Made by a program: the position numbers and the translations under genes. The notes below the pieces were generated by a model. That model was not told where the DNA came from. It was given only the letters and a program-made list of their open reading frames with translations, and made no database searches. Positions 214 to 26,238 of a DNA stretch of 26,837 nt are shown here, in pieces (within the stretch, counting starts at the first letter, position 1; each line of letters opens with the position of its first letter). The stretch comes from a virus, in the IMG/VR virus record IMGVR_UViG_3300027631_000112, positions 1 through 26,837 of that record. One strand, 5' to 3'.

Positions 214-3200
214 TTATGCGTACGAAGTTAAGGCGCCTATTACAGTCCAAGTACTAGGCGTTGTTTGGATAAAGGATAAAGTGACTAAATTAACTCTACT
301 AACTACACCAATAGCAGCTACCGCACCTTGCCACTTTATTGTAAAAGGCGCTCCATTAATTGTTATACTAGTTAAGGGTAGATAAGCTGTCGCTCCCTGC
401 ACTATTATTAAAGTAGCAGTACTAACATAATTAGCAGTAGTGGGTATATTAGTAAAATTTGCAGTAAAATTTGCACTAACACTAGGAAAATAAAATATAC
501 CTGATAGACTATAATTTAGTGTTACTGTATTAGATACTATTGTTGGAGTAGTAAAGTATTCTTGAAATGCTGCGGCTGTAGTTATACCTGTAAAAGTAGG
601 ACTAATTTTTGGCGCTCTTAAATCTAAGGCATTAGTAGTTGCTGTACTAACTGGTTTATTTAAGTCAGTAGTATCTTCAGCAAACTCTAATCCAACCATT
701 TTTTTAGTAATACCACTTACTGTTCCACTAAAGGTTGGGCTTGCAGCAAATACTAAATTTCCAGTACCTGTCTTATTTGATATAATGCTGGCTAATTCTG
801 CAGAAGTAGTTGAAGCATGTACTGATAGTTTATTACTTGTATAGGCAACAGTACCTCCTGTACTAAAATTAACTGAACTTAGATCAGTACCTGTAAATGT
901 TAATGTGTTATCTACAGTAAGAATTTTATCATTAGCAATAGTTAATGTAGAACCAAGTGAGGGGGCGGTAATTGTTACTTTGTTAATTGTAGTAGCGGAA
1001 GCAACACCAAGAGTTGGTGTTACTAATGCTGGACTTGTAGCAAATACTAATGAGCCACTACCTGTTTCGTCTGATATAATACTAGCTAGCTCAGTTGACG
1101 TAGTTGAAGAAAATGCTGATAGTTTATTAGCTGTATAGGCAACAGTACCTCCTGCACTAAAACTAACTGAACTTGCATCTGTACCCGTAAATGTTAGAGT
1201 ATTACTTGCTGTTAATGTTTTACCATCAGCAATAGTTAATGTTGACGCAGTTGCTGGAGCAGTAATTGTTACTCTGTTAATTGTAGTAGAGAGACTACCA
1301 TTAACAACAAAGTTACCATTAATTATTAAATCATTATTAATTGTTGTAGTACCATACCCTGCACCCATGCTTAGGGCACTAGCCGCTCCGAAGGCATTAA
1401 TAGTAGTTGCAGTTGTATTCAATAATGCAAAACTTGTGCTTGGTGTAGTTAACGATGTAGTAATTGCTGGACTTGTACCAAATACTAGTGCTCCAGAGCC
1501 AGTTTCATCACTAATTACGCCCGCTAATTCTGCTGAAGTAGTTACAGCAAATGCTGATAGTTTATCAGCTGTATAGGCAACAGTACCTCCTGTACTAAAA
1601 TTAACTGAACTTAGATCCGTACCTGTAAATGTTAGGGTGTTATCTACAGTAAGAATTTTACCCTCTGCAATAGTTAGGGTAGAACCAGTTGCTGGAGCAG
1701 TAATAGCTACTCTGTTAACTGTAGTAGCTGAGGCAATGCCCAGCGTTGGTGTTGTTAGTACTGGGCTTGCTGAAAACACTAAAGATCCAGAGCCTGTTTC
1801 ATCTGATATAATACTAGCTAATTCTGCAGAAGTAGTAGCAGCATGTACTGATAGTTTATTACTTGTATAAGCAACAGTACCTCCTGTACTAAAATTAACT
1901 GAACTTAGATCAGTACCTGTAAATGTTAGGGTATTACTTGCTGTTAATGTTTTACCCTCTGCAATAGTTAATGTAGAACCAGTTGCTGGGGCAGTAATTG
2001 TTACTCTGTTAACTGTAGTAGCTGAGGCAATGCCCAGCGTTGGTGTTACTAATACGGGACTTGTAGCAAATACTAACGATCCAGAGCCTGTTTCATCACT
2101 AATTACACCCAGTAATTCAGCTGAAGTAGTTGCAGCAAACGCACTAAGTTTATCGCTTGTTGTGGCTAATGTGCCGCTCGTTGGCATTGTTAATGATGTA
2201 ATACCTGTTGCAGTAAGTGTTGTAGCAAATGCACCACTAGTAGTTAAGTTACCTCCTAAGGTAATAGTCTTACCCGTGTTATTTACGCCCGTGCCGCCAT
2301 ATGTTGGATCAATAATAGTAGCATTCCAAGTACCAGTACCTATTGTAGCAACACTAGTTAGGCTGGAAGTAGTAACACCTGAACCAAGTGTTGACGCACT
2401 TAGTACATCAATACCACTAATCTTAAATGTTTTACCACCTACAACATTAAAATATTCTGAAGAAGTCCAGCCATTTGCGGCACTCCAAGTAATATATTTA
2501 TCAGTTGCACCTTTAAGAGTAATACCACCACCTGTGGCGGATACATCTGTTGGGCTAGCTGTATCACCTAAGGTAATATTAATATCATCTACAGAAACAG
2601 TAGTGGCATTAATAGTTGTTGTTGTACCATTAACAATAAAGTTACCACTAATTGTTAAATCATTGTTAATTGTTGTAGTACCAGAACTTGCACCAATACT
2701 TAATGTTGTTGCGGAACCGGCAAAGTTAATTGTAGTTGCAGTTGTATTCAATAATGCAAAAGTTGTACTTGGTGTAGTTAACGATGTGGTAATTGTTGGA
2801 CTGGTACCAAATACCAGTGCTCCACTGCCTGTTTCATCTGATATAATACTAGCTAGCTCAGTTGACGTAGTAGCAGCAAACACGGATAGTTTATTACTTG
2901 TATAAGCAACAGTACCTCCCGTACTAAAATTAACTGTACTTAGATCCGTACCTGTAAATGTTAGGGTATTACTTGCTGTTAATGTTTTACCATTAGCAAT
3001 AGTTAGGGTAGAACCAGTTGCTGGAGCAGTAATAGCTACTCTGTTAATTGTAGTAGCTGAGGCAATGCCCAGCGTTGGTGTTGTTAGTACTGGGCTTGCT
3101 GAAAACACTAAAGATCCAGAGCCAGTTTCATCACTAATTATACCCAGTAGTTCAGCTGAAGTAGTTGCAGCAAATGCTGATAGTTTATTACTTGTATAGG

Positions 3201-5637
3201 CAACAGTACCTCCCGTACTAAAATTAACTGTACTTGCGTCAGTACCCGTAAATGTTAGTGTATTACTTGCTGTTAATGTTTTACCATCAGCAATAGTTAA
3301 TGTAGAACCATTTGCAGGAGTAGTAATAGCTACTTTGTTAATTGTAGTAGCTGAGGCAACACCAAGCGTTGGTGTTGTTAGTGTTGGAGAAGTTAAATTT
3401 GCAGAATTTAAAGTGGGACTTGTAGCAAATACCAGTGCTCCACTACCTGTTTCATCACTAATTACGCCAGCTAATTCTGAGGAAGTAGTAGCGGCAAATA
3501 CTGATAATTTACTACCGGTATATACAACAGTACCTCCAGTACCAAAATTAATTGAAGAAGCATCAGTACCTGTAAATGCTAGAGTATTATTTACAGTAAG
3601 AGTTTTATTATCAGCAATAGTTAACGTAGAACCAGATGCAGGAGTAGTAATTGTTACTTTATTAATTGTAGTAGCTGAGGCAACACCAATAGTTGGTGTT
3701 ACTAGTGTTGGAGAATTTAAGGTTGGGCTTGCTGAAAACACTAATGATCCAGACCCTGTCTCATCACTAATTATACCCAGTAGTTCAGCTGAAGTAGTTA
3801 CAGCAAATGCGGATAGTTTATTAGCTGTATAGGCAACAGTACCTCCCGTACTAAAATTAACTGAACTTGCATCCGTACCTGTAAATGTTAGGGTATTATT
3901 TGTTGTTAATGTTTTACCCTCTGCAATAGTTAATGTAGAACCAGTTGCTGGAGCAGTAATAGCTACTCTGTTAACTGTAGTAGCTGAGGCAACGCCAAGC
4001 GTTGGTGTTACTAATACAGGGCTTGTAGCAAGAACATTACTACCAGTACCAGTAACTGTATTGAACGCAGTAAATGAAGAAGACCAAGATGCTGCCGTAG
4101 TTCCTGTAATTGCCGTTACTGTAAAAATAGCAGAAGTACTTGGGGGCACTACTAATATAATGTTTAATCCACTACTTTGTACAGTTATGTTATCCGTACT
4201 ATTATTTACAATTTGATATTGTTGGCCAATTACTAATGTACTTGTAACTGGAAGTACTACAATTTGTGTTGCAGTACCTGTAAAATATTGTTGATGATTG
4301 CTGGAATTAGTTAACGTAGTAGTTAATGTATTAGTTATAGTAGTACTATATCCATTAATATTATTCTTACTTGAAACTATATTTGCACTAATATCTGCTG
4401 CTGATATTGTACCGGTAAACGTTGGACTTGCTGAAAACACTAGTAGTCCACTACCTGTTTCATCTGATATAATACTAGCTAGCTCAGTTGACGTAGTAGC
4501 AGCAAACACGGATAGTTTATTACTTGTATAAACAACAGTACCGCCACTACTAAAATTAACTGAACTTAGATCCGTACCCGTAAATGTTAGGGTATTACTT
4601 GCTGTTAATGTTTTACCATCAGCAATAGTTAATGTAGAACCATTTGCAGGAGTAGTAATAGCTACTTTGTTAATTGTAGTAGCTGAGGCAACACCAAGAG
4701 TCGGTGTTGTTAGTGTTGGACTTAATAGTGGTATACTAATAACACCATTATTAATTGTAATAGTAGTACCATCAACTTTTACACCACCTAGTACACTAGT
4801 ACTTGCTACTGGAATTCCTCCTGGAGGTAGTCCAGTATAGTATAGTTGCCCTGATGCATTATATGTTAAAGTTGAGCCGTCTACTTTAACGCCGCCAAGT
4901 ACTGATGTACTGGCTACAGGTAAAATATAACTAATTACACCACTATTAATAGAAATAGTAGTACCATCAACTTTAACGCCACCAAGTACTGATGTACTAG
5001 ATATGGGTAAAGTATAAGCATATGGTGCACTAATTACACCATTATTAATTGTAATAGTAGTATTATCGATTTTAACGCCACCAAGTACTGTTGTACTGGC
5101 TACAGGTAATGAATATCTTGCTGCATTTATTGCTGCAGTAGTTGCTGTACTAACTGGTTTATTTAAGTCAGTAGTATCTTCAGCAAACTCTAATCCAACC
5201 ATTTTTTTAGTAATACCATTTACAGTACCACTAAATGTTGCTGTACCCGTAAAGTTAGGCGAAGCTTTTGGCGCTAGTAATCCTTCAGCTAATAATGCTC
5301 TAGATGATTCAACTAATATAGCGTTATTAATTGCAGTAGTTGTTAATGTATCTGTAATACCATATCCAGCAATTGTAGTAGGCTTACTACTTAAACTTGC
5401 AAATACACCATTAAATCCACTAATAATACCACTACTAATTGTAATGGTTGTACCATCTACTTTTACTAAGCCTAATACAAGATTAGTAGCTGTAGGTATA
5501 GCTGCCCAACTTGTATTAGTACCGTCAGTAACTAAATACTTTCCACTATTACCAGCAACTGTTGGTAATACCATACTTGATGATAACACATTTAGTTGAG
5601 TAATATAGTCTGTTTGACCAACGTAAAAACTAGGCAT
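214..5637 (-). CDS. Large repeat-built tail fibre protein (1807 aa)
   Basis: A probable side or tip fibre for host attachment, extremely rich in Thr, Ser, Ala, Val and Gly. Four regions can be seen. Residues 1-180 are an N-terminal part with a TKKMVGLEFAEDTTDLNKP segment. Residues about 180-300 hold four copies of a VLGGVKVDGTTI motif. Residues about 310-1640 hold nine copies of a repeat of about 95 residues (key parts SATTIN.V.IT.P, STLTIA, LTFTGTD, GGTVAYT, ISDETGSG). The C-terminal 170 residues repeat the TKKMVGLEFAED segment and end in a beta domain (NAPF/WTVIGALTSYA region). Non-repeat inserts follow copies 1 and 5; the second (ISGNFIVNG, DINITLGDT) resembles domains seen in fibres of aquatic phages. 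The start ATG follows the upstream stop directly (TAAATG) and has a strong GAGGAG site. No enzymatic motif is visible. Assignment as a fibre is firm; the receptor is unknown. Confidence 0.88.
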   Translation of the reverse strand: MPSFYVGQTDYITQLNVLSSSMVLPTVAGNSGKYLVTDGTNTSWAAIPTATNLVLGLVKVDGTTITISSGIISGFNGVFASLSSKPTTIAGYGITDTLTTTAINNAILVESSRALLAEGLLAPKASPNFTGTATFSGTVNGITKKMVGLEFAEDTTDLNKPVSTATTAAINAARYSLPVASTTVLGGVKIDNTTITINNGVISAPYAYTLPISSTSVLGGVKVDGTTISINSGVISYILPVASTSVLGGVKVDGSTLTYNASGQLYYTGLPPGGIPVASTSVLGGVKVDGTTITINNGVISIPLLSPTLTTPTLGVASATTINKVAITTPANGSTLTIADGKTLTASNTLTFTGTDLSSVNFSSGGTVVYTSNKLSVFAATTSTELASIISDETGSGLLVFSASPTFTGTISAADISANIVSSKNNINGYSTTITNTLTTTLTNSSNHQQYFTGTATQIVVLPVTSTLVIGQQYQIVNNSTDNITVQSSGLNIILVVPPSTSAIFTVTAITGTTAASWSSSFTAFNTVTGTGSNVLATSPVLVTPTLGVASATTVNRVAITAPATGSTLTIAEGKTLTTNNTLTFTGTDASSVNFSTGGTVAYTANKLSAFAVTTSAELLGIISDETGSGSLVFSASPTLNSPTLVTPTIGVASATTINKVTITTPASGSTLTIADNKTLTVNNTLAFTGTDASSINFGTGGTVVYTGSKLSVFAATTSSELAGVISDETGSGALVFATSPTLNSANLTSPTLTTPTLGVASATTINKVAITTPANGSTLTIADGKTLTASNTLTFTGTDASTVNFSTGGTVAYTSNKLSAFAATTSAELLGIISDETGSGSLVFSASPVLTTPTLGIASATTINRVAITAPATGSTLTIANGKTLTASNTLTFTGTDLSTVNFSTGGTVAYTSNKLSVFAATTSTELASIISDETGSGALVFGTSPTITTSLTTPSTTFALLNTTATTINFAGSATTLSIGASSGTTTINNDLTISGNFIVNGTTTTINATTVSVDDINITLGDTASPTDVSATGGGITLKGATDKYITWSAANGWTSSEYFNVVGGKTFKISGIDVLSASTLGSGVTTSSLTSVATIGTGTWNATIIDPTYGGTGVNNTGKTITLGGNLTTSGAFATTLTATGITSLTMPTSGTLATTSDKLSAFAATTSAELLGVISDETGSGSLVFATSPVLVTPTLGIASATTVNRVTITAPATGSTLTIAEGKTLTASNTLTFTGTDLSSVNFSTGGTVAYTSNKLSVHAATTSAELASIISDETGSGSLVFSASPVLTTPTLGIASATTVNRVAITAPATGSTLTIAEGKILTVDNTLTFTGTDLSSVNFSTGGTVAYTADKLSAFAVTTSAELAGVISDETGSGALVFGTSPAITTSLTTPSTSFALLNTTATTINAFGAASALSMGAGYGTTTINNDLIINGNFVVNGSLSTTINRVTITAPATASTLTIADGKTLTASNTLTFTGTDASSVSFSAGGTVAYTANKLSAFSSTTSTELASIISDETGSGSLVFATSPALVTPTLGVASATTINKVTITAPSLGSTLTIANDKILTVDNTLTFTGTDLSSVNFSTGGTVAYTSNKLSVHASTTSAELASIISNKTGTGNLVFAASPTFSGTVSGITKKMVGLEFAEDTTDLNKPVSTATTNALDLRAPKISPTFTGITTAAAFQEYFTTPTIVSNTVTLNYSLSGIFYFPSVSANFTANFTNIPTTANYVSTATLIIVQGATAYLPLTSITINGAPFTIKWQGAVAAIGVVSRVNLVTLSFIQTTPSTWTVIGALTSYA
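634..715. repeat. 82-bp exact direct repeat, copy A (3' end of fibre gene)
   Basis: Base-for-base identical, by reading, to 5137-5218. It encodes the KKMVGLEFAEDTTDLNKP segment near the C-terminus of the fibre. The two copies start 4503 bases apart, a multiple of three, so they are in the same reading frame. Confidence 0.9.
720..4740 (-). repeat. Nine tandem-like copies of a ~95-residue fibre repeat
   Basis: The coding strand contains nine units beginning with (V/I)ASATT(I/V)N(K/R)V or a close variant (the eighth begins LSTTINRV). On the plus strand they begin near 4706, 4004, 3692, 3373, 3074, 2041, 1745, 1290 and 1013. A full unit runs through LTIADGKTLT, NTLTFTGTD, NFSTGGTVAYT and ELASIISDETGSG to TSPTLVTPTLG. 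Copies differ by a few substitutions at the protein level, and some are nearly identical in DNA: 1667-1794 and 2996-3123 differ at one position in 128 by my reading. Spacers between units vary, and two contain unrelated inserts. The boundaries given are approximate. Confidence 0.88.
4740..5115 (-). repeat. Four copies of a VLGGVKVDG fibre motif
   Basis: Within the N-terminal part of the fibre, four units of about 25-40 residues share the pattern P(V/I)(A/S)ST(S/T)VLGGVK(V/I)D followed by a short strand and usually NGVIS. A fifth, diverged copy (LVLGLVKVDGTTI) lies near 5420-5490. This is the kind of short beta motif common in trimeric fibre shafts, and the unit differs from the longer repeat that follows. 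Confidence 0.8.
5137..5218. repeat. 82-bp exact direct repeat, copy B (5' part of fibre gene)
   Basis: Identical to 634-715. It encodes the KKMVGLEFAEDTTDLNKP segment near residues 140-167 of the fibre. With copy A it brackets the whole repeat array. Confidence 0.9.
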
Positions 5638-11454: not shown

Positions 11455-14400
11455 TTAAACTACGGTTACCCCAGAACGGGCTTTCCAGTTTTGTTGATTT
11501 AATGCTTGTACGTTACCATTATTAATGGCTTCTGCATTTCTTGCATTTGCTGTAAATGTTGTTGCGATTAAGTGTCCTGTTTGTTCCTTTTGATCTTCAC
11601 GTAACTTTGTTACTTCTTCTCTTAAGGCTTTAACTTCTGCGATTAAGGCGTCATTGTTAAATAGATTCTTACTGTCTGCGTTAGAGTAAACTCTTCCGGG
11701 GTTAACAAAGTCTACTAGCTCAGGTCCTTGCTCACCTACTAAGGACATTCCAGAGGCTAAACCTCCAGCGGCATACTTAGCATAGGGAACACCTGCAGCC
11801 GTAGAGCCTGAAGCAGTTGCTGAAGCTTGAGCTATAGTGGTTACTCCTACTGCTGTTAAATACTTTTCTAGTAGTTGGGCTGTTGTATCTGTTGCCGCTG
11901 CAATCTTATCTAGGAAACCTAGCTGTTCTTGCACTTCTGTTTGCTGTGTAGTTAGTATACTACTAGTAGCGTCTATAGCTGTACCAACTGCGGCAAAGTC
12001 CGCAGCATACTGGGTACCAGACGCATTCATAACCTTAGAGTTTGCTAAGAAACTATCAGATGCTTTTGATAGATTGGCTACGGCGTCATCTCTAGTTTTT
12101 ATTTCTGCTGTAGAACTTGAAGTAGTAATTGTTGCTTTAGCAGCAGCAGATGTTTGTTCAAATATTGCTTTAGATTGTGCATACTTTTCTGCAGGAGACA
12201 TGGTAGAAGAACTTCCACCAAGTAGTGCAGTTTTATAGTCTTGTAAGGATTTAATTGATGATGTTAGTGAATTATTTGTAGTATCATAAGCAGACTTAAG
12301 TTTATCACGAAGTGCAATCTCATCTGTTAAGGCATTAAGATATCTTTGACGAGGTCTTAGAGCAGCGTCCATCGCGTCTAATTCCTTCTGTCTAGTTAAG
12401 TTTAGAGCCTCGTTACTTCCCTTTAATTGATATATCTTTATTTCTAGATCTAAGGCTGAATCAGCTAAAGCTTTAGCTGCTTCTGAGGCTTTAAGTACTG
12501 TATCAAGTCCAGGAGCTAAGTCCATTAAGCTTTGATACATTTTTTGTCCGGCATCTGTACTTAAGTCCTGTGCATTAACTAATTTTGCAAACTCCTCGCG
12601 ACTAATATTAGTGTTAATACTTAGTTTAGTTAACTGCTTACTTACACTTTCCTGTACGGGTGCAAGTCTTTGAGCATCTGTTAAGAAGGCATCTTTAAAA
12701 AATGAGGACTGTTCCATAAACTTTTCAAGTCCGCCGGCAGCTTTAATCATAGCTTCTGATATATCAAATTTACCTATTATATTAAAGCTATTACCAACAG
12801 ATCTTAAAGCTTGATCTACTTTTTTATTGCCATCTGTTACTCTAACTACTGTTTCTAGATATCCTTCGCCAAATTTCTTAAACTTGTCAAATCCACCAAA
12901 TAGTAAGTGAGCAGTTTCGTCTAGTTTAGCACCTACTACAGCATTTAATTGATCAAGGGCTGCTTGACCTGTTAAGCCCATAGTATCAATATCGCCCTGA
13001 ATACCACTAAAATTTATGGATTTAAAAGCCTGATTTATAGCATCTGTTCCTACACCTGCCGTAGCACCTACTTCTGTAAATACTTCTTTAGCATTTTTAA
13101 ATACGTCTGATAATCCTTTACGTACTTCAGCTCCAACAGCAACAGCTTGTCTGCTAAGCGTTGTCCAATCTTGATCACTACCAAACCATCCGCCATCCCT
13201 ATGAAATTGTGTAAGTACATCTTTATAAGCAGTAATACTACCTTCAGTCTCATCAATAAGATTTTGTAGGCTACCATTTACATTAATACCTGCTCCAGCA
13301 ATACTAGTATTAGCAGTGGTTGCTCCACCAAATACGCTATTTAAGAATCCACTACCAAATAATCCACCCTTACTAGTTGTTTCAGTACCTGGTTGTGTTC
13401 CAAATGTAGTTCCACCTTTTCGTAATCCTGGAATATTATAAATAGCTTGTGAAGTTACGCTTAAAGAATCGGCTAATTTACTAAACGCTTTTAATAGCTT
13501 GTCGTCATAGTCTAACCCTTCTATAGAATTACTCGCTAATATTTCCATAGATTTAGCTATAGATTCTGATTTAGCTGAGTCATCTCCAAATACTCCACCA
13601 GTACCTGCACTAGCTTGTTTTTCTGCAGAGGTTTTGCCGGTCATGTCAACACTAGGAGGCGCTGAACCACCTCCGCCTACCATAGCCAGTAATGAAGCTA
13701 CTAAAGCTGCACCAATTGCATAACCTACTGGGCCCATAGTAGCAAATGAGGATAGTATAGCTGGTGTATTAGCCACCGTAGTACCTGCTGCTCCTACTGT
13801 GTTTTCTGCTACAATTGCGGTTTGAGCAGCACCTGTAGCAGCTACTTCAGCTTGTAGTATCCTCGTATGTAAGAGAAAACTTTTACCTAAATTAAAGGCC
13901 TCGGCAGCCATTGTTTTAAGTTGTAAACCTAGTTTTATTGCATTAGAGGTTTTTTCTAAGTTATCAAGAAGTCTATATGCTACACTTTTTTGATCTACTA
14001 GTTTTTTAGAGTTTGCAGATATTGTTGATATACTACTTAGTTCTTCTTTAGTACTTAGGTCTCTATACTTAGCATCTATAGCATATTTTTGTTTAGGGTC
14101 CATAGGCCCGACACTCATTGCAGCATCTATTTCTGCCTGTTTCTGTTTAACTAGATCTTCTTGAGCTTTTACAGATGCGTACATACCTTTTACAACTTCG
14201 CCTAAGGCTGTACCCATATCGCCAAATATAGCAGTTAGGTTAGAGGCTAAACTTTCCTGATCTTTTAATAGTTTATTTTGTCTTTCTAATTCTAACCCTT
14301 GTGCTCTGCTTGATTCAATTAATTTTTCAGAAATTGCGGCTTGTTCTAATAACACACTACGTTTGCTATTTAATAGTTCTAGAACTCTTTGAGTTGCTTT

Positions 14401-17400
14401 TTGTTCCTCAGTTAGTGGCATTTCCTGAGCCCCTGCACCTTCGGGTCCTTTAAAATTAGGGGTCATCAAAGAAGCTGCAAAGTTGGCAATACGAGCTTTT
14501 TCTTGGGCATTTTCAATTGCAAGAGTTGAATCTAATAAAGCTAAATTACTAGATAGCTGTAACTTTGATAAGTCTATATCGGCTTTTCTATTAATATAGA
14601 ATTCTTGGCTTACAGTATTTAATTCCTTTTGATTTTGTAGAAGTTGTTGTTCTAGGTCTAATCTTGTAGTAGATATATCAAATATATCTTGCGAAAGAGC
14701 TCTTTCGTGTTCCTGAATTTTTATTTTATCAGCTAACTTACCATTAAGAGTATTTATATTTTTTTGTACGCCCAAATCATATAGTTTACTAGAAGTTATC
14801 TGTTTTTCTACTTTAAGAGAGGCATCTAATTTTAGAATAGTTTCATTATGTAAATCATTCAAAGCTTTTTTGTCTTCTCGACTAGCGTTGGCTAAGTCTT
14901 TGCTTCTCTTTTCATAGTCATTAATTTCTAATTGTTTGGCAGACTCTAACGCATTTATCGCATCTATTGATCTTTCTTTTTCGCGAGAGACCAATAAAGA
15001 GCTAGTTTGTTTTGCAATTTCTTCCTCAGTAAGTAGCCCTAATTCTTTTGATAAATTTAATCTATTTTCAAGTACGGTTAGTTCTCCACTAGCTAATATA
15101 GAAAGACGAGAAGTTCTAATATCTATTATTTTTTGATCAAAATCTGCTTCAGCTTTTTTTCCCGCTAAGCTTTCTTCCGCATATCCAGCCTTGCGCTTAG
15201 CTAAAGCCTGTGCATCTCTTTCCGCTTTATTATTAAGTTTGGTGGTAAGTTCAGAAGCCGCACTTTTAGGGTCTCTTATGTCAGATCCTCCTAGTATTGC
15301 TTTTTTAATTTCTTGTTGAATATCTAAATACTCAGAAGCTTCCTTATTTAAAGCTATGGCTTCAGCTATTCTTTCTTTTTCTTTCATTGCACTTTTACTT
15401 AAAAACAAAGAATTTTTTATTGTAATATCTAGACTTTGTTGTTGAGTAAGTAGTCGTTCTAGTTGAGTAGCTGCTAAATCTTTTTCTACTTTAAGAGCAT
15501 CATCCATCAGACTAAACTGGGCACCTGTAGATATAGATTTCTGCTGACTCATAAGTTCTGCTTTACTAGCCGCTGCACCTGCAGTTATTGCGGCACCTGG
15601 TTGCAATATTTTAGCTGCCTCAAATCTGGCCTGACCGACGCTACGGTCACCCACACCAAATTTTTGTATAATCTGATTCAATTGGTCAAAAGTATAGTCA
15701 CCCATCTCTTTGGACATTTCTATACCAACTCTACGATTAGTTATATCGCTATCCATCTTTTGTTCTTGCTTTATGTTAGCTTCTGTAGGCGTTCTACCGC
15801 CTTTTCTATTTCTTTCTTGAATAGTCTCTAAAAGAATTTGTTGATTAACTAAAGTATTCTCCTCTTCGGCAATTCTTAAATTATCCATTACTTTGGATAA
15901 GCTAGCTTTAGCATCTAGTTCACGAATTTGTAATCCAATACTTTGTATCTCTAAGGCCGCTCTTGTTTTTATACCCTCAGCAGTATCTCCTAATCCCGCA
16001 GCTTTAGCTTTAGCTTCAGTAATTTTTGCTTTTTCAAAAGCTATACCTATACTATCTGCTACTTTTTGTGATCCTCTGGCAAATACAGCCTCTTGCTCTT
16101 TATTAATTTTATCTATATAAGGTTGTATTTTAATTTTTAAGGGATCAATAAGATTTATTAGATCTTTTTGTTGTTTTTGATTATCCCCTATCTCTTTATC
16201 AAACTGAATCTGATAAACGCCAAATTTAGTATCAGCTCTTTTTGCTTTTAAGGCTTCTTCTTCATTTTTTAGTCTGTCTAATGCACTTGTATAGGTGGAA
16301 ATGTCTGCTGCCATTTCTTTAATTTTAGGACTGGCTTTATATAATTCACTTGCTGCTTCAGGATCAAAAAATCTTAACTTAGCGGTATCTCCGGATATTT
16401 CTACTAACTTACTTAAAGCAGTAGTAGGATCTTTGAAAGCTTTAGCCATTTTCTGAGAAACATCTATAGATTGAAATCCTAATTTAGCTAAATCATCTGA
16501 AGGTTGCATGCTAGTTAAAATTGCAGTAAATGTATCTCCAGCAATTTTAAAGGAGTCATCAAGTTCTTTTCCTTTTGATGCCGTATTACTTAAATCTACA
16601 CCTAGTTGCTGCATAATAGTAGTAACTTTTGGAGCAATTTCTAAAAACTTCTCTGGTGTATCATTCAAATATTCTCTAAACGCTTTTTGATCTGTTGGAT
16701 CAACCCCTGTTAATTCTTTAATTTCTCTTAATGCTTTTGTTGTTTCCTCACCTGGTGTAGCTAATTTAAAAGCTTCAGATACACTTATTGATAATGCTTT
16801 AGAGGAACTTCTCAATAAACCAAACCCTACTGCTACTGCTGTAGTATCAAAAAATTTATCTAAATCACTTGCAGCAGCATTTTCTGCTATAAGTGCTTTA
16901 ACAGCTTTAGCAGAAGCGTCACTAACTTCTAAAATTGCATTAGCTTTTGCACTCATTGCTGCTGTAGATATTTTATAAAGAGGATCTCTATCCTCTAAAT
17001 CTTTCATTACATTGTTTAACATTTCTGAAGCTGCAGTCAAATTCTCAAATGAGGATCTAGTTACCTTAGCCTCTTTACCATTAGAACTTAGAGTATCGAC
17101 CAGAAGATCAACACTAGCTACAACAAATGCAATTATAGCACCAATTTCACCGTATTTTCCAATAAAAGTAGAGATCTTACTTAAAGCACTACTAGCTTGA
17201 GTTTTTATAATACCATAACTGCCTGCTACAGTTTCATTCACTCTTTGTAGAGCATTAAGTTTACTTATTTGCTCAGTAACTTCTTTACCTTGTTTATCAT
17301 AAGTGCCAGTACCAATAGTTAGCTTTCCTCTACCGAGTATTCCGCCTTGAGCAGCAGCTAGCTGTGCATTCATACTAGTTAAAGCAGCTATCATACCTTT

Positions 17401-18981
17401 AGTTGCTTGAGTTTCTGCAGTTATTGCTTTAATATTATCTAGGTGATACCTTTGATTTATACTATTAGTTCTATCTTTAAGAGCAGCTAGTTGCTTAGTA
17501 TTTTCTACATCTTTAGCAGCAGAATCATCGGATGCAGCTTGGCCAATTTTACCACTTTTAACTTTAGCTTTTTCAATACTATTATATAGATTACCTAATT
17601 CTTTAGAGTGTTGTTGTTCAATATCTAATGAACTACTAGCTAGTTCTTTTTGCTTGCTCTTTATTGTAGCTATTTCACCAGGAGTTAGGTCAAAAGGACT
17701 TTTCTTTGCAATAGCTGCAACTTCTTTTCCTACTACCCCTTCATCTAGTTGTCTAATTTTTCTTTTACTATTATAAGCTGTTTGATACGCTTTTTCAGCG
17801 GCGGCAGAGGCGGCACTATCTTTCTCACCAAGCATAGCTTCTAAATCTGATACCTCTTGATTGGAGGCAGCTCTAGTAGTAGTAGCATAATCTTTTGATT
17901 TTTTAGCTAAATCTACCATGCTTATCTTATAAGCAGTTAGCCCCGGTATAGCCATATTTAATAATGTTTTTCCTACAGCTGCTAAAGCTAGTGCTAATAG
18001 TGCACTATTGTCTGCAAGTACTGATATAAAAGCTCCTACAGGAGTATTGATTAATTCTAAGAAACTTTGTACTATATTTTGTACACTTGCAGATAGTTTA
18101 GAGTAAGGGTTGGAGTCAAGTTTAATCTGTCCAAATTTACGTTCGCCTTCATCAAGTACTGCATTAGCAAAAGCTTGACGTTTTTCAAAATCAGTTAATT
18201 CTGTAGTAGATTTTCCTAATGCTTTAGCATACGCTTGATGAGCAGGTATAACGCGAGCCATAATACCTAATTCGTCTAATAATTCAGGTTGAACCTTAAC
18301 AATACCTTTTGTTAAACGATCCATTGAATCAGGCATATCTCTACCTAAAGCTAAGGAGGCCTTTTTAGCTACTTCTGTCATTCTCAAGATATTAGCACTG
18401 CTTAATCCACCAGCAGTTGCTAGTGCTGTAGAAGTCATAGCTTGCTGCATCGATATTGCACCACCAGTAACTAATACCATTTGTTTTGCTAATCCACCCA
18501 GACTTCTACCACTTACAGCACCTAGTTGATCTAAACCCTTTACAATATTTGAGATATCAGCGGCTTTAGAAAGTGCATTAAATGCTGCACTTACAGCAAA
18601 TAAGTTAGCAGCAAAAGTTGCATAGACGTGAACAAGCCCGCCCAAGCCTTGAGCCTGTGCTGCAAAATCTCTTCCACTTGCACCAGTTTGTCCGGCAAGT
18701 CCACGACTTAGGTTAGTATCACTAGCAGTATTGCCTGGCCCACTAGCAGCCCTATAAGCTGCTGATTTTGGCTGACTTGCTGAAGCACTTTGGCTCATAG
18801 TACTAGGCTGACTTCTAGCTACACCTTCACGAGCTGCCGCAGTAGCTGTGGGTACACGTATAGAAGCAGCTGCTTGAGCCGCTCCTTCAAGCGTAGTTCT
18901 TAACTGCTCTGCTCTTTTATTTGCTGCAGTTGTAGTACCATTATCCGCTACATTAATACCTATATTAATGGTTTCTTGCAT
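11455..18981 (-). CDS. Tail tape measure protein (2508 aa)
   Basis: Sets tail length and is held inside the tail tube, probably entering the cell envelope during DNA delivery. The size, position after the chaperone genes and alpha-helical, Ala/Lys/Glu-rich composition are those of a tape measure protein. Residues about 50-115 are low-complexity Ser/Ala/Gln. A conserved-looking N-terminal helical region follows (LGAVSGRSLGGLAKQM, STALATAGGLSSANILRM). Hydrophobic segments lie near 318-343, 610-630 and 1745-1768. Long coiled-coil stretches fill about 940-1650. The C-terminus has the GLASGMSLVGEQGPELVDF motif and VYSNADS, typical of this family. The start has AAGGA six bases upstream. I see no lysozyme or peptidase motif. 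The gene is flanked by its own promoter and terminator. Confidence 0.95.
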   Translation of the reverse strand: MQETINIGINVADNGTTTAANKRAEQLRTTLEGAAQAAASIRVPTATAAAREGVARSQPSTMSQSASASQPKSAAYRAASGPGNTASDTNLSRGLAGQTGASGRDFAAQAQGLGGLVHVYATFAANLFAVSAAFNALSKAADISNIVKGLDQLGAVSGRSLGGLAKQMVLVTGGAISMQQAMTSTALATAGGLSSANILRMTEVAKKASLALGRDMPDSMDRLTKGIVKVQPELLDELGIMARVIPAHQAYAKALGKSTTELTDFEKRQAFANAVLDEGERKFGQIKLDSNPYSKLSASVQNIVQSFLELINTPVGAFISVLADNSALLALALAAVGKTLLNMAIPGLTAYKISMVDLAKKSKDYATTTRAASNQEVSDLEAMLGEKDSAASAAAEKAYQTAYNSKRKIRQLDEGVVGKEVAAIAKKSPFDLTPGEIATIKSKQKELASSSLDIEQQHSKELGNLYNSIEKAKVKSGKIGQAASDDSAAKDVENTKQLAALKDRTNSINQRYHLDNIKAITAETQATKGMIAALTSMNAQLAAAQGGILGRGKLTIGTGTYDKQGKEVTEQISKLNALQRVNETVAGSYGIIKTQASSALSKISTFIGKYGEIGAIIAFVVASVDLLVDTLSSNGKEAKVTRSSFENLTAASEMLNNVMKDLEDRDPLYKISTAAMSAKANAILEVSDASAKAVKALIAENAAASDLDKFFDTTAVAVGFGLLRSSSKALSISVSEAFKLATPGEETTKALREIKELTGVDPTDQKAFREYLNDTPEKFLEIAPKVTTIMQQLGVDLSNTASKGKELDDSFKIAGDTFTAILTSMQPSDDLAKLGFQSIDVSQKMAKAFKDPTTALSKLVEISGDTAKLRFFDPEAASELYKASPKIKEMAADISTYTSALDRLKNEEEALKAKRADTKFGVYQIQFDKEIGDNQKQQKDLINLIDPLKIKIQPYIDKINKEQEAVFARGSQKVADSIGIAFEKAKITEAKAKAAGLGDTAEGIKTRAALEIQSIGLQIRELDAKASLSKVMDNLRIAEEENTLVNQQILLETIQERNRKGGRTPTEANIKQEQKMDSDITNRRVGIEMSKEMGDYTFDQLNQIIQKFGVGDRSVGQARFEAAKILQPGAAITAGAAASKAELMSQQKSISTGAQFSLMDDALKVEKDLAATQLERLLTQQQSLDITIKNSLFLSKSAMKEKERIAEAIALNKEASEYLDIQQEIKKAILGGSDIRDPKSAASELTTKLNNKAERDAQALAKRKAGYAEESLAGKKAEADFDQKIIDIRTSRLSILASGELTVLENRLNLSKELGLLTEEEIAKQTSSLLVSREKERSIDAINALESAKQLEINDYEKRSKDLANASREDKKALNDLHNETILKLDASLKVEKQITSSKLYDLGVQKNINTLNGKLADKIKIQEHERALSQDIFDISTTRLDLEQQLLQNQKELNTVSQEFYINRKADIDLSKLQLSSNLALLDSTLAIENAQEKARIANFAASLMTPNFKGPEGAGAQEMPLTEEQKATQRVLELLNSKRSVLLEQAAISEKLIESSRAQGLELERQNKLLKDQESLASNLTAIFGDMGTALGEVVKGMYASVKAQEDLVKQKQAEIDAAMSVGPMDPKQKYAIDAKYRDLSTKEELSSISTISANSKKLVDQKSVAYRLLDNLEKTSNAIKLGLQLKTMAAEAFNLGKSFLLHTRILQAEVAATGAAQTAIVAENTVGAAGTTVANTPAILSSFATMGPVGYAIGAALVASLLAMVGGGGSAPPSVDMTGKTSAEKQASAGTGGVFGDDSAKSESIAKSMEILASNSIEGLDYDDKLLKAFSKLADSLSVTSQAIYNIPGLRKGGTTFGTQPGTETTSKGGLFGSGFLNSVFGGATTANTSIAGAGINVNGSLQNLIDETEGSITAYKDVLTQFHRDGGWFGSDQDWTTLSRQAVAVGAEVRKGLSDVFKNAKEVFTEVGATAGVGTDAINQAFKSINFSGIQGDIDTMGLTGQAALDQLNAVVGAKLDETAHLLFGGFDKFKKFGEGYLETVVRVTDGNKKVDQALRSVGNSFNIIGKFDISEAMIKAAGGLEKFMEQSSFFKDAFLTDAQRLAPVQESVSKQLTKLSINTNISREEFAKLVNAQDLSTDAGQKMYQSLMDLAPGLDTVLKASEAAKALADSALDLEIKIYQLKGSNEALNLTRQKELDAMDAALRPRQRYLNALTDEIALRDKLKSAYDTTNNSLTSSIKSLQDYKTALLGGSSSTMSPAEKYAQSKAIFEQTSAAAKATITTSSSTAEIKTRDDAVANLSKASDSFLANSKVMNASGTQYAADFAAVGTAIDATSSILTTQQTEVQEQLGFLDKIAAATDTTAQLLEKYLTAVGVTTIAQASATASGSTAAGVPYAKYAAGGLASGMSLVGEQGPELVDFVNPGRVYSNADSKNLFNNDALIAEVKALREEVTKLREDQKEQTGHLIATTFTANARNAEAINNGNVQALNQQNWKARSGVTVV

Positions 18982-19087: not shown

Positions 19088-19120
19088 AAAAAAACCCCTG
19101 TATCTCTCAATACAGGGGTT
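19088..19120 (-). terminator. Rho-independent terminator after the tail chaperone genes
   Basis: A 10-bp stem (AACCCCTGTA / TACAGGGGTT) with an eight-base loop, followed on the minus strand by seven Ts counting the last two of the stem. It starts three bases after the stop codon of the downstream chaperone ORF. Confidence 0.93.
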
Positions 19121-19122
19121 AT

Positions 19123-19431
19123 CTATTTTGTTTTCGGTCTTGCATCGGCAATGGCTTTTGACCTATGCCTATCAATAATTCCTATTAACTCAAACTGGGT
19201 TCTTCTATCTTCGACCGGTACCTCTAGTAGTTCTAGTATATCTACTAATCCTACATAATTTTTACCTAAGTATACGCCGTTCATTGTATCCCACTCGTCT
19301 CGCAGTTTTTGATAAACTCCTAAAGCTTCTTGAACATCTAAACAGAAATCCTCGTATTCAACGGGAATCTCTGAATCTAGGGGCTCTGAGCCTAAGGCTT
19401 CACACATCTCAAAGTAGTCATCTTTAGTCAT
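19123..19431 (-). CDS. Tail assembly chaperone, T-like part, expressed by -1 frameshift
   Basis: An acidic helical ORF (MTKDDYFEMCEALGSEP, VEYEDFCLDVQEALGVYQ, DILELLEVPVEDRR). Its own ATG at 19431 has no convincing Shine-Dalgarno site. The same frame is open upstream through HEDQYLELNRQLESYFSNG as far as the slippery site at 19497-19503. A -1 shift there would join 136 residues of the upstream chaperone to 124 residues in this frame, a fusion of 260. This is the layout of lambda gpG/gpGT and of many siphoviruses, where the G part coats the tape measure and the T part recruits tail tube subunits. I give the ATG-based ORF coordinates; the real product is more likely the fusion reading 19904-19497 and then 19497-19123. 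Confidence 0.82.
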   Translation of the reverse strand: MTKDDYFEMCEALGSEPLDSEIPVEYEDFCLDVQEALGVYQKLRDEWDTMNGVYLGKNYVGLVDILELLEVPVEDRRTQFELIGIIDRHRSKAIADARPKTK

Positions 19432-19436
19432 TGAGA

Positions 19437-19488
19437 CAGTACCATTTGAAAAGTAGGACTCTAATTGGCGATTTAATTCAAGGTACTG
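19437..19488 (-). other. Possible frameshift-stimulating stem (or pseudoknot)
   Basis: In the mRNA, CAGTACC (19488-19482) can pair perfectly with GGTACTG (19443-19437). The stem begins eight bases after the slippery heptamer, a spacing usual for stimulatory structures. The loop is 38 bases, so the stem alone is weak unless the loop folds or forms a pseudoknot. GTAC-containing words are common here, so chance pairing is possible. Confidence 0.35.
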
Positions 19489-19904
19489 GTCTTCGTGAAA
19501 TTTGAGAGCTCAGTTACTGTCTCTGAAATAAAGGCATCGAAATTGGCAGATGATTGCATTAGGAATAATGCATTGTCTTGGTCATAGGCCAGTTCATCAT
19601 CAGGATTCTGTCCTGTTAAGTCTACTGGAGCTAACTGTTCTAGGTAAGATAGTTTAAGACCTGACCATCCTTTAATACATGCATTAACATATAACTGCAA
19701 GAATAGTTTGTCATCAAGTTCTTCAACTGGTTGACGATTCTTGAAAGTTGTCTTAGTTGACTTCTTACGAATACCTACTAATGTTTCGCGAGAAAGAAAG
19801 ACTGCGTTAATCTTGAAGCCATTTAAGCCTGGGTAATCTACTTCGACCGCTTTAGAGGGTACTAATAGTGATTTCAGGCTGAGAGCTGCATTTTGTGTTG
19901 CCAT
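19473..19904 (-). CDS. Tail assembly chaperone, G-like (143 aa)
   Basis: Follows the tail tube gene and precedes the tape measure, the usual place for the gpG-type chaperone that binds and extends the tape measure during tail assembly. Visible segments include VDYPGLNGFKINAVFLSRETLVGIRKKS, given here in two parts for reference as VDYPGLNGFKIN and VFLSRETLVGIRKK, then EELDDKLFLQLYVNACIKGW and a C-terminus SETVTELSNFTKTSTLN. The basic RKKSTKTTFKNR stretch around residues 46-57 and the conserved-looking W in CIKGW are typical of small tail chaperones. The start has AAGGA seven bases upstream. Codons 135-136 (AAT TTC) and the preceding A form a slippery heptamer, so a minority of ribosomes should move to the -1 frame and extend the protein. 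Excess of this short form over the fusion is expected. Confidence 0.82.
   Translation of the reverse strand: MATQNAALSLKSLLVPSKAVEVDYPGLNGFKINAVFLSRETLVGIRKKSTKTTFKNRQPVEELDDKLFLQLYVNACIKGWSGLKLSYLEQLAPVDLTGQNPDDELAYDQDNALFLMQSSANFDAFISETVTELSNFTKTSTLN
19497..19503 (-). promoter_or_regulatory. -1 ribosomal frameshift slippery heptamer A AAT TTC
   Basis: In the frame of the upstream chaperone the mRNA reads TC[A AAT TTC] ACG. This fits X XXY YYZ with X=A, Y=T, Z=C. After slipping one base back, the anticodons face AAA and TTT, and reading continues as CAC GAA GAC into the frame of the downstream ORF with no stop. It lies eight codons before the stop of the upstream ORF. Confidence 0.85.
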
Positions 19905-19933
19905 TAAATTGTCCTTTTATTATAATAGACGAG

Positions 19934-19964
19934 AAAAAAGGGTAGAGGAGATCAACCCTCTACC
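19934..19964 (-). terminator. Rho-independent terminator after the tail tube gene
   Basis: An 8-bp stem (GGTAGAGG / CCTCTACC) with an eight-base loop, followed on the minus strand by C and then six Ts. It lies just after the tail tube stop codon. No good promoter follows before the chaperone gene, so read-through must supply the chaperones; a leaky terminator would set tube protein well above chaperone. Confidence 0.85.
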
Positions 19965-19972
19965 AAGAAAAA

Positions 19973-21421
19973 TTAAGCCGAGAAGTAACGAATTGCGATA
20001 TCGTTGTTCTTATCAAGTGCAAAAGTATTCCCATTTGCAGTAGCAGAAGGCGTAGATCCTTCAGCAGTGAAGTTAATGGTTGTAGATACAACTGCTTGAA
20101 CGTCAATTGTAGGAATACTAAATACAGCGGAAGGCATATCAATAACAACCCTAGTTGCGTTTGAGGCACCACCGATAGATATGCTTAGTGTAGCCATAGG
20201 TTCAGTACTACTAGACGCTGCTGCAAGCATGTCAGCTAATAATTGTCCAGTGCTTTGTACACCTACACCAGTTTTCATATATGCACTCATAGTGCCTGTT
20301 ACGGCGCGAGTAGCAGTATAGTAAGTGAAAGGAACATTAACAACACCAAGATTAGCAGGAGTAATGTAGGCAATATTATTATTAATAGTAATAGAACCAC
20401 CTGTTAGGGCTATAGCATATGATGTACCTGCTGCTGCACTACCGATTGCATTAACTAAACTCAGGCTAACAGTGCTTAGCTTATTAGTAATGAATGGTGC
20501 AGTAAGATTTCTAGCAGTATATTGAGCACCACCACCTGTAGCAGTTAGTGTATTAAGTGCTGCAGCTAAACCAATTGTTGCCGACTTATCAGAAAGGGCA
20601 GTTCCCATACCTGACCAAGCAATTGTGGCAATACCGTCAAGACCAAAGTCAACTACAGCTTGATTTAGGGCGCAGTTATCAACAACGTAGGTAACGCTAT
20701 CAACAATGAAAATCATACCAAACTTTTGTAGTTGGTTAAAGTTTGATCCAGCACTGCTTACATAGGAGTAAGTAGTGGCAACAGGTGCCCATGCTGACTT
20801 ATATAATTTAACAGGACCAGCAGCAGTAATTGCAGTGATTGCAGCACCAGCAGCTTTTGGGTTTGTTAATTCAATAGTAATTGAACTACCAGTTAAAGTC
20901 TTAATAACACCAGCAGAATTTAAGATAGATGCATCGGTTGCATGACTAAGTCCACTAATAATTACTGCGTCGCCTACTGCTAAACTTGTAGTAGTAAAGG
21001 TACCGGTTAGGGTAACTGTACCAACACCTGCAGCAAATGCATAGGCAGCTGTAACACCGCTAGCAGCAATTGTAAGAGTATTAGCAGTACTAATTGCGTT
21101 AACTCCTAGTAAGGCGTTCCATAGTACGGCTTCTTCAGCAGTAATCGAAGTAGTCGCATTAGCAGGACGAATATACGTACTCATTGAAAAGTCTACAGGA
21201 GCTAAACTTGTATTGAATGAACGTTGTCCACGAATAGGTGCAGAACCTGCTTCAGATACTGTAATTGTATCTTGGTTGGTTGCTTGTGTAAATGTAAAGC
21301 CGTCAAGAACTTGTAATTCTTGTGTATTAGCAGCGGTAAAACCGGATGTTTGGACTACTCCGTAAGTGTCCACGTTAGTAGTAAAGAATACTCTACTATT
21401 ACGTACTAGATTTAATGCCAT
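19973..21421 (-). CDS. Major tail tube protein (482 aa)
   Basis: The main subunit of the tail tube, placed between the tail terminator and the chaperones as in most siphoviruses. The N-terminus (MALNLVRNSRVFFTTN) and the segments ELQVLDGFTFTQATNQDTI, GQRSFNTSLAPVDFSMSTY and RPANATTSITAEEAVLW match what I know of long tail tube proteins of this type; the arginine/serine-led start and the VDFSMSTYIRP strand are the best cues. Residues about 112-205 look like an inserted Ala/Thr-rich beta domain (VGTVTLTG, SLAVGDAVIISGL, SSITIELTNP) that would decorate the tube. The C-terminal 150 residues are a further beta domain. The start has AAGGA six bases upstream. A terminator follows it directly, consistent with a highly expressed gene. 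The 71 bases before it hold no convincing promoter. Confidence 0.85.
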   Translation of the reverse strand: MALNLVRNSRVFFTTNVDTYGVVQTSGFTAANTQELQVLDGFTFTQATNQDTITVSEAGSAPIRGQRSFNTSLAPVDFSMSTYIRPANATTSITAEEAVLWNALLGVNAISTANTLTIAASGVTAAYAFAAGVGTVTLTGTFTTTSLAVGDAVIISGLSHATDASILNSAGVIKTLTGSSITIELTNPKAAGAAITAITAAGPVKLYKSAWAPVATTYSYVSSAGSNFNQLQKFGMIFIVDSVTYVVDNCALNQAVVDFGLDGIATIAWSGMGTALSDKSATIGLAAALNTLTATGGGAQYTARNLTAPFITNKLSTVSLSLVNAIGSAAAGTSYAIALTGGSITINNNIAYITPANLGVVNVPFTYYTATRAVTGTMSAYMKTGVGVQSTGQLLADMLAAASSSTEPMATLSISIGGASNATRVVIDMPSAVFSIPTIDVQAVVSTTINFTAEGSTPSATANGNTFALDKNNDIAIRYFSA

Positions 21422-24231: not shown

Positions 24232-26238
24232 TTAACCAATGTAACGTAGGGCAGAAACGCCAACGCTAGCACTGACTTGTGCCATACCAACACGCATTGA
24301 AGCCACCATCACACGAGCTTGTTCAGCTGCTAGTTCTTGTGTATCAACACGTAGACCGCGCTGACTTCCCATTAGGAAGTTAGGGAGGTAAACTGCAATA
24401 GCAGCTACGTTAGTTAGTCCAGATACACCGGCTGTAGTTGCTGCCGAACCAGTTGCTGGTCTAGCAGGCATTTCACCAGAGGCAATAACTGGGGAACCAC
24501 TAATGAAACCTACTTGACCTGTTAGAACAGTAGCTAATGGGCCTACTTTTTCCATTGTCATGAATTCAGTTGCTTCCATTAAATCGTAGTATGTTTCGTT
24601 GTTAACAATATATGCTACTTCGGCTGGATCGAGACCATAGTTACCTAAAGAGGCACGTAGAGCACGTAGTTTAGCTAAATTGATTGTAGTAGCAACTGCG
24701 TTTTGTTGAGCAGTTGCCGAAGCACCTGCGCGATTAGCTAAACCACTAATTGGAACAGTAGAACCATCACCAACTAATAGGGCGCTGTCAATTGCTTTAG
24801 CACAACGACGAACCATAGCTTCACGAATCATTGGCATTAATACTAGTAAGGAATCTTCTTCCTCTTCGTAACCTACGAACTCTTTTGTTGCAATTTTATA
24901 TGCATTTAAGGTAACTTCGCTTAGTTTATGAGATACACCTGTACCGCCTGAAGTTGTGTTCAAGGTTGTGGCATTAGTAGGATTATATGCAGTAACCCAA
25001 GTTGCTGATCCTACTTCAGGATTAACAGGAATACTTAACACATTAGTCTTCATCGCGATCTGACGGAATAGCGGAGCTACTACTAATTTACGCTTTAAAG
25101 CTTGTTCCATAGTTAACGAAACCTCTAGTTCCCATGGTGTAGCACCAGGAACGTGGGCTTGGCTAGACTTCTCTAGTAATGCACGGCCATAGTCAGTATC
25201 TTTGATAGACTTGCCTAGTACTGAAGCTAACATAACTGCATGAGTTTTTTCTTCGATACTAACAGCACCTTGATCGGTCTTGTCTGCAAAAGTCATCTTA
25301 GATTTTTGCATTGCTGCAATTTCTGCTGACTTTTCTGCTAGGGCAGATTGTAGGCTACTTAGTACTTCTTTTGTTGTTTCTTGCTGTTCGTTGAAACGCT
25401 TTTCAACTTCAGCCATTAAACGCTCAGCACCAGTGTCAACTGTTTGTACAACAGGAGCTGCTGGAGTTGCTGCGGCTACTGCTGCTGCAACTGCTGATTT
25501 AACACGAGCGTCAATTTCAGCTTCTTGAGCTGCTTTAACTGCTTGTGCTTGTGCTTGTGCAGCGGCTTGATCTGCAAAAGCTTTAGTGGTTTGTTCAACC
25601 GCTGACTTAGCTGCATCTGCAACCATTTGTTTGATTTCTTCTGGATTCATTTTCCATTCCTTCTGTGATGTGCCGTCTGCTTCCTTAGAGGATTCTAGCC
25701 CTTTAGCTGACTCGCTTTCGGGTGCAAACTGCTGTTTAAATATTTTATACTCATCGGCATCGTCAAATGCCTTAGACAAACTAAATAGAGTGTTTTGGTT
25801 TGCAGGCACTGAAACTATTGATACTTCTACCAGCTCCAATTGCTTGATTACAAATAACTCAGTTGCAGCATTATATTCAGCATCCATAACTCTGAATCCA
25901 ACGCTAAACGCGGTTAGTACCTCGTCTTTTACTAAATTGCAAATTTCTGCAGCTGCAGAAATTCTTGCTTTTATCCATAAACCTTTATTATCTATTCTAT
26001 GCTCTACCATTCGACCCACTGGATCATTATAGTCATGCTGTGCAAGAATAATAGGATTTTTCAAGTAGTTTTTAATTCCTGCTTCCCAAACGCTGGCAGG
26101 AACTACGTCCCCTTGTCTGTCTATGTCTGTGGTACTTGCGTACCCTTCAATATAAACTGAATCACTAGGCTCATCGGATGCAGGAGCTGCTTTATTAGTA
26201 AAAGTACTATTAAGATATAATACTTTGTTCTTATTCAT
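24232..26238 (-). CDS. Prohead protease–major capsid protein fusion (668 aa)
   Basis: Residues 1-160 are an S78/HK97-type prohead protease: YIEGYASTTDIDRQGD, ILAQHDY with likely catalytic His68, LTAFSVGF with likely catalytic Ser112, and VEVSIVSVPAN. Residues about 197-320 are Ala/Glu/Gln-rich and helical, like the HK97 delta (scaffold) domain. Residues about 320-668 are an HK97-fold capsid subunit: PGATPWELEVSLTMEQAL, SIPVNPEVGSATWVTAY, EFVGYEEEEDSLLVLMPMI, ALLVGDG and a closing ALRYIG. Most HK97-like phages encode the protease and capsid separately. The start has AAGGAG overlapping the portal stop. The ORF contains an internal ribosome site and ATG at the protease/scaffold border, so both a full fusion and a free scaffold-capsid protein of 472 residues may be made. 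The mature N-terminus cannot be read from sequence. Confidence 0.93.
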   Translation of the reverse strand: MNKNKVLYLNSTFTNKAAPASDEPSDSVYIEGYASTTDIDRQGDVVPASVWEAGIKNYLKNPIILAQHDYNDPVGRMVEHRIDNKGLWIKARISAAAEICNLVKDEVLTAFSVGFRVMDAEYNAATELFVIKQLELVEVSIVSVPANQNTLFSLSKAFDDADEYKIFKQQFAPESESAKGLESSKEADGTSQKEWKMNPEEIKQMVADAAKSAVEQTTKAFADQAAAQAQAQAVKAAQEAEIDARVKSAVAAAVAAATPAAPVVQTVDTGAERLMAEVEKRFNEQQETTKEVLSSLQSALAEKSAEIAAMQKSKMTFADKTDQGAVSIEEKTHAVMLASVLGKSIKDTDYGRALLEKSSQAHVPGATPWELEVSLTMEQALKRKLVVAPLFRQIAMKTNVLSIPVNPEVGSATWVTAYNPTNATTLNTTSGGTGVSHKLSEVTLNAYKIATKEFVGYEEEEDSLLVLMPMIREAMVRRCAKAIDSALLVGDGSTVPISGLANRAGASATAQQNAVATTINLAKLRALRASLGNYGLDPAEVAYIVNNETYYDLMEATEFMTMEKVGPLATVLTGQVGFISGSPVIASGEMPARPATGSAATTAGVSGLTNVAAIAVYLPNFLMGSQRGLRVDTQELAAEQARVMVASMRVGMAQVSASVGVSALRYIG
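25648..25662 (-). promoter_or_regulatory. Internal ribosome site and ATG for a separate scaffold-capsid product
   Basis: AAGGA (25662-25658) lies seven bases before ATG 25650-25648, which begins MNPEEIKQM at residue 197 of the fusion, exactly where the protease domain and linker end and the scaffold helix begins. Initiation here would give a 472-residue protein, ending at 24232, without the protease. The position at a domain border makes it more than a random SD-ATG pair. Confidence 0.6.

Follow-up and report, generated by a model that had tools for sequence, protein, structure and literature searches.

The tail assembly chaperone genes G and T of the virus analyzed here are very probably a single gene read in two ways, whose products would be a 143-aa chaperone and, as a minority product, a 260-aa GT fusion reached by a -1 slip on the heptamer A_AAU_UUC. 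The window, i.e., the whole analyzed stretch of 26,837 nucleotides (IMG/VR record IMGVR_UViG_3300027631_000112), thus provides a well supported, though by itself ordinary, new member of the classical -1 recoding family, as judged from its sequence. The comparison with related loci leads further. It is likely that the direction of the shift was reversed within one homologous chaperone family, UUU_CGN (+1) and A_AAU_UUY (-1) having replaced each other, in whichever order, at the same Phe codon, with small compensating indels that keep the fusion colinear, and that the +1 site of the T5-like phages was overlooked in the published descriptions.

The structural genes of the window are localized on its minus strand. 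In the gene order tail tube, G, T and tape measure, the G/T pair follows the tail tube gene and immediately precedes the tape measure gene, which is the location expected for a pair of the lambda type. The coordinates of the particular elements are presented in Table 1. Terminator-like hairpins flank the G-T unit on both sides, and a promoter-like site (19065-19037) precedes the tape measure gene. A terminator-like hairpin 3' of T was also found in 45 of 56 relatives carrying the heptamer G_GGA_AAC and at 13 of 20 loci with T in the +1 frame (both groups are described below).

Table 1. Elements of the G-T region and its neighbors in the window
Feature	Position	Strand	Basis or remark
ORF G, tail assembly chaperone, 143 aa	19473..19904 (ATG 19904, TAA 19475-19473)	-	ORF call; PHROG; fold model
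ORF T from its own ATG, 102 aa; T domain of the GT fusion	19123..19431	-	ORF call; PHROG; model
Predicted GT fusion, 260 aa, via -1 shift at 19503-19497	19123..19904	-	reading frames
Slippery heptamer A_AAU_UUC, -1 direction	19497..19503 (5'->3' 19503-19497)	-	P-site AAT Asn135, A-site TTC Phe136
Trans-frame linker, 22 codons, HEDQYLELNRQLESYFSNGTVS	19432..19497	-	-1 frame; first codon CAC re-reads C at 19497; start overlaps the end of G
Major tail (tube) protein; putative partner of the T domain	19973..21421	-	phrog_3575, E 2.7e-52
Tape measure protein, 2508 aa; putative client of G and GT	11455..18981	-	phrog_3779, E 1e-43
Intrinsic-terminator-like hairpin directly after T, ahead of the tape measure gene	19093..19120	-	hairpin prediction
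Terminator-like hairpin between the tail tube gene and G	19941..19964	-	hairpin prediction

Several other features of the window were recorded. The region between the tail tube gene and G (19905-19972) is devoid of the gene for a 'minor tail / base plate tail tube' protein of about 300 aa, which the T5-like phages carry at this place. The tape measure protein is about twice as long as that of the T5-like phage phiR2-01 (1226 aa), and if the rule of 1.5 angstrom per residue (PMC8624392) is applied to its 2508 aa, a tail of about 376 nm would be expected. The head maturation protease and the major capsid protein form a single 668-aa ORF (24232-26238, minus strand), in place of the two genes of T5-like phages such as Shivani. 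Moreover, positions 214-5637 (minus strand) encode a fibre-like protein of 1807 aa with many near-identical repeats, and several long antisense ORFs across this region look like by-products of the repeats. Searches of the window for tRNA genes and Rfam families found none, and a search against phage DNA, the distant mode included, gave no match to the window.

The identity of both proteins, which the first-pass annotation had described as G-like and GT-like, agrees with the PHROG searches, in which both parts matched tail assembly chaperone families: G phrog_313 ('Tail assembly chaperone', E 1e-11) and T phrog_3914 ('tail assembly chaperone', E 3.5e-10). The model of G (pLDDT 81) aligned best with the PDB chains 3klu (YqbN, Z 5.2) and 2ob9 (the HK97 tail assembly chaperone, gp13, Z 4.5). 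These scores are modest, but the top two rows are the expected tail assembly chaperone fold. For the model of T (pLDDT 88), BFVD gave matches to the tape measure chaperones from Salmonella phage Shivani and Proteus phage Stubb, and T is similar to tape measure chaperones predicted for siphoviruses, T5-like and others; a weak structural match to CcrColossus was found as well. Foldseek searches against the PDB yielded no confident match for the G or T models, Pfam contained no match for either protein, and a sequence search of the PDB returned no match worth naming. The nearest isolated relatives of G, T and the tail terminator are T5-like phages (Demerecviridae), with less than 42% identity.

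The end of G reads CTC TCA AAT TTC ACG AAG ACC AGT ACC TTG AAT TAA. The heptamer A_AAT_TTC is in phase with G and is located 28 nt ahead of the TAA codon; as had been noted in the first-pass annotation, it precedes the stop of G by eight codons. The -1 frame is indeed open into the downstream ORF: after the slip, reading would continue with CAC GAA GAC CAG through the linker to the ATG of T (19431) and then through T. The distance from the slip site to this ATG, previously given as 27 or so codons, is 22 codons, and the lengths of G (143 aa) and of the fusion (136 + 124 = 260 aa) are as proposed before. The junction peptide of GT predicted for cleavage with Asp-N is DAFISETVTELSNFHE.

It should be stressed that a heptamer in one sequence alone is weak evidence, barely beyond chance. 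About 0.04 in-phase X_XXY_YYZ motifs are expected per eight codons of the window genome. When the 16 codons surrounding the site were shuffled synonymously, such a motif was present in 18% of the shuffles. This modest improbability leaves room for a reading in which the heptamer is accidental and G and T are separate genes, with translation of T beginning at its own ATG, either through translational coupling or through reinitiation past the stop of G. The presence of that ATG about 41 nt past the stop fits such a reading, as do most records of T5-like phages, in which two genes are annotated. The heptamer of the window gains significance because it is conserved in relatives.

A first set of relatives comprised 67 usable viral contigs, most of which carried AAATTTC or AAATTTT and all of which had the -1 frame open. 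Wider scans, together with the records of T5-like phages, gave 401 loci with G, which were thinned to 204 loci differing by more than 5%; these are related sequences, and the counts given below are therefore not counts of independent events. A stop codon between the two frames in related phages, which the first-pass annotation had named as an observation that would speak against the shift, was found in 0 of the 204 loci. T is in the -1 frame in 182 of them. The search for the same heptamer in relatives, which had also been suggested, showed that 177 of these 182 loci keep either this site or, shifted upstream by one codon, another slip heptamer. Two classes can be distinguished here. Class A (118 loci) has A_AAU_UUY at the junction Phe codon, and class B (59 loci) has (C/T)TG GGA AAC TTY, which places G_GGA_AAC one codon upstream; the five remaining -1 loci are without a perfect heptamer, and all of them keep U_UUU. 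According to the tree, the two heptamers were swapped several times within the -1 group.

The conservation concerns exactly those bases that a tandem slip would use. In class A, the codon preceding AAT ends in A at all 118 loci, whichever amino acid it encodes (TCA, GCA, ACA and GAA for Ser, Ala, Thr and Glu). In class B, the Leu codon ahead of GGA AAC ends in G in 59 of 59 loci; the corresponding figures are 23 of 118 in class A and about 20% for Leu codons in other parts of the same genes. Among 37 sequences of the window's clade, the slip codons NNA AAT TTC, the first of which varies between Ser, Ala and Thr, all have a third-base entropy of 0, as compared with typically 1-1.8 bits just upstream of them; in the window's subclade the entropy is also low just downstream of the slip, where two frames are coded. 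The median distance from the opening of the T frame to the Phe codon downstream of it is 10 nt. In the fusion, the T frame is read only from the slip onward, and the coding of T therefore offers no explanation for the conservation of the bases preceding the slip.

The same data bear on two further explanations of the frame relation. The site is A/T rich (AAATTT), and joining of the frames by transcriptional slippage on this run could be considered, yet the run consists of just three A and three T residues, which is short for polymerase slippage, the conservation is phased to codons, and relatives substitute G_GGA_AAC for it; we regard this explanation as highly improbable. The other one, namely that the gene is truly continuous and the two frames reflect a sequencing or assembly indel, draws on the fact that metagenomic contigs can carry such errors, and its probability is negligible: it is refuted by the 182 non-redundant loci with the same frame relation, with the stop of G soon past the site and, in nearly all of them, with a slip heptamer.

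The region between the stop of G and the Met of T provides evidence of another kind. In 113 close pairs, dN/dS of this region was 0.20 in the T frame, and the alternative frames gave values of 1.1 and 1.8, a pattern of purifying selection which supports translation of the linker as protein in the frame of T. In the model of T the linker forms a confident helix (residues 3-22), and the codons before the ATG are predicted to be a part of the first helix of T. No Shine-Dalgarno-like sequence precedes the ATG at 19431, which agrees with the earlier remark that this codon lacks a ribosome site. In many relatives the Met of T is exchanged for Val, Ile or other residues, and 81 of the 204 loci have no ATG, GTG or TTG start for T in the region. 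A Shine-Dalgarno-like tetramer accompanies a T start at only 9 of the 204 loci, but is found at 103 of 125 starts of G. The selection on the linker, the loss of Met and of starts, the scarcity of Shine-Dalgarno-like tetramers and the helix model make a separate expression of T unlikely, and, with the invariance of the slip-site codons added, the two-gene reading of the window as a whole appears very improbable.

For the single gene read in two ways, the following course of events can be proposed. Most ribosomes would terminate at the stop of G and release the 143-aa chaperone. A minority would slip back by one base, the tRNA-Asn and tRNA-Phe located on A_AAU_UUC pairing anew with AAA and UUU, and would carry on through the linker and T to produce GT. 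If lambda and its relatives (PMC5009743) serve as a guide, the long tape measure protein would be covered by G, and the small number of GT molecules would use their T domain to bring in the tail tube subunits.

RNA elements that could stimulate the slip were searched for around the site. In the window's clade, the downstream structure did not differ from that of coding-preserving shuffles (mean z 0.02), and no clear Shine-Dalgarno-like stimulator was found upstream of the window site. A stem of the window, CAGUACC...GGUACUG (7+5 bp), was considered as a downstream stimulator and rejected (p 0.09-0.13; the clade does not keep it). In a marine sister clade with GAA AAT TTT at the site, a hairpin is located about 8 nt past the site (mean z -2.5 vs coding-preserving shuffles), and it covaries, with 53 double-change cells compared with 28 in shuffles; the signal of the G_GGA_AAC group is weaker (z -1.8). 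The marine hairpin may be a stimulator which the window's clade lost or never had. In loci such as L212, L218, L228 and L274, it is composed of the left arm CAAGUA and two alternative right arms.

The remaining 22 of the 204 loci have T in the +1 frame with respect to G. They include all 14 T5-like (Demerecviridae) isolates checked, representing Markadamsvirinae, Mccorquodalevirinae, Ermolyevavirinae, Sugarlandvirus, Priunavirus, Novosibvirus and unplaced Demerecviridae, and eight environmental relatives. The window does not belong to this group, its T being in the -1 frame and its junction reading AAT TTC ACG. The junction Phe is one of seven residues invariant in the alignment spanning the -1 and +1 groups. 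In the +1 loci its codon is TTT in 22 of 22 cases and is always followed by C, as a part of CGN in 20 loci and of CAC in two; in the T5-like isolates TTT is followed by CGT or CGA. The codon before TTT is variable (ACC, ACT, TCT, TCC, ACG, TCA, AAC, GGG, CAC, AAT, CGA), and the Met of T is unconserved in this group too. From these patterns we infer that a +1 slip on UUU_C(GN) leads to the fusion in the T5-like phages and some environmental relatives, at the Phe codon where the window's large environmental clade would slip by -1. Separately, in one odd relative, locus L376, whose G ends near 2399, T is in the +1 frame and the alignment shows no Phe at the junction.

In the tree of G plus T, all -1 loci lie on one side of a branch with a support of 99, so that one change of direction is needed, the tree being unrooted as to which direction came first; an earlier tree with fewer +1 loci agrees on a single change. 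The sites on the two sides of the branch are similar, as can be seen from GCC AAT TTT CGA AGA GAA CCA G in L369 (+1) and GCA AAT TTT ACG AAG AAC AG in L372 (-1). The fusions are colinear, as a Gln is located four residues past the Phe in 180 of 182 -1 loci and in six of eight environmental +1 loci.

The contrast between +1 and -1 would disappear if the T frame of the T5-like phages were reached by a -2 slip, or if T were a separate gene there. Slips by -2 are exemplified by phage Mu. The joined product is already annotated in the records of Sw2 and Shivani, most T5-like records having two separate genes, and its length in Shivani, 277 aa, fits a -2 slip, while +1 would give 276 aa. Moreover, according to the description of phage Sugarland no frameshift signal is predicted in it, as in T5 (PMC6256483). 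On the other hand, most +1 loci have a T frame that becomes open shortly upstream of the shared Phe codon. As the codon before TTT varies and TTT-C is constant in 22 of 22 loci, the +1 re-pairing from UUU to UUC is always preserved, and the -2 re-pairing is not; the unconserved Met of T argues against a separate gene in these phages as well. We consider the -2 or separate-gene reading of the T5-like loci rather unlikely, and the reversal of direction remains the favored account. In the open literature, to which the search was confined, no description of a +1 shift in T5-like phages, or of UUU_CGN in phages, was found.

Less expected than the window site itself is the finding that branches of a single family place T in different frames with respect to G, and have distinct slip sites at one codon; this suggests that selection keeps the output of two products rather than the mechanism by which they are obtained. 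The family therefore offers a natural pair for asking what steers ribosomes to slip forward or back. For T5-like phages, where one paper reports no signal, the comparison shows where to look. At a practical level, annotation pipelines would split the G-T gene of the window in two.

A known counterpart of the window site is the reviewed -1 frameshift in the tail assembly gene of lambda, which yields gpG and gpGT (PMC5009743). In both phages, the gene that immediately precedes the tape measure gene would give two products, the longer one through a -1 slip on an X_XXY_YYZ heptamer close to the end of G, and the T domain is without a usable start of its own; the heptamer differs, being here A_AAU_UUC (Asn-Phe codons), and the likeness is one of arrangement and predicted mechanism. 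In Caulobacter phages phiCbK and Colossus, a -1 shift was predicted in the chaperone gene preceding, as in the window, that of the tape measure, and the heptamer of Colossus, GGGAAAC (PMC3556154), is that of the class B relatives; these are other phages, and T has a weak structural match to CcrColossus. The UUU_CGN sequence, which occupies the putative shift site of the +1 relatives and is absent from the window itself, is the +1 frameshift motif of influenza A PA-X and of plant amalgaviruses (PMC3498833, PMC5052127), which are eukaryotic viruses, with host tRNAs different from those of the +1 phages. A further comparison is provided by the T5-like pair of Salmonella phages Sw2 and Shivani and Klebsiella phage Sugarland, which shares with the window homologous G and T, the same order before the tape measure gene and the same invariant junction Phe, but has T in the +1 frame with UUU_CGN, as opposed to the -1 frame with A_AAU_UUC in the window.
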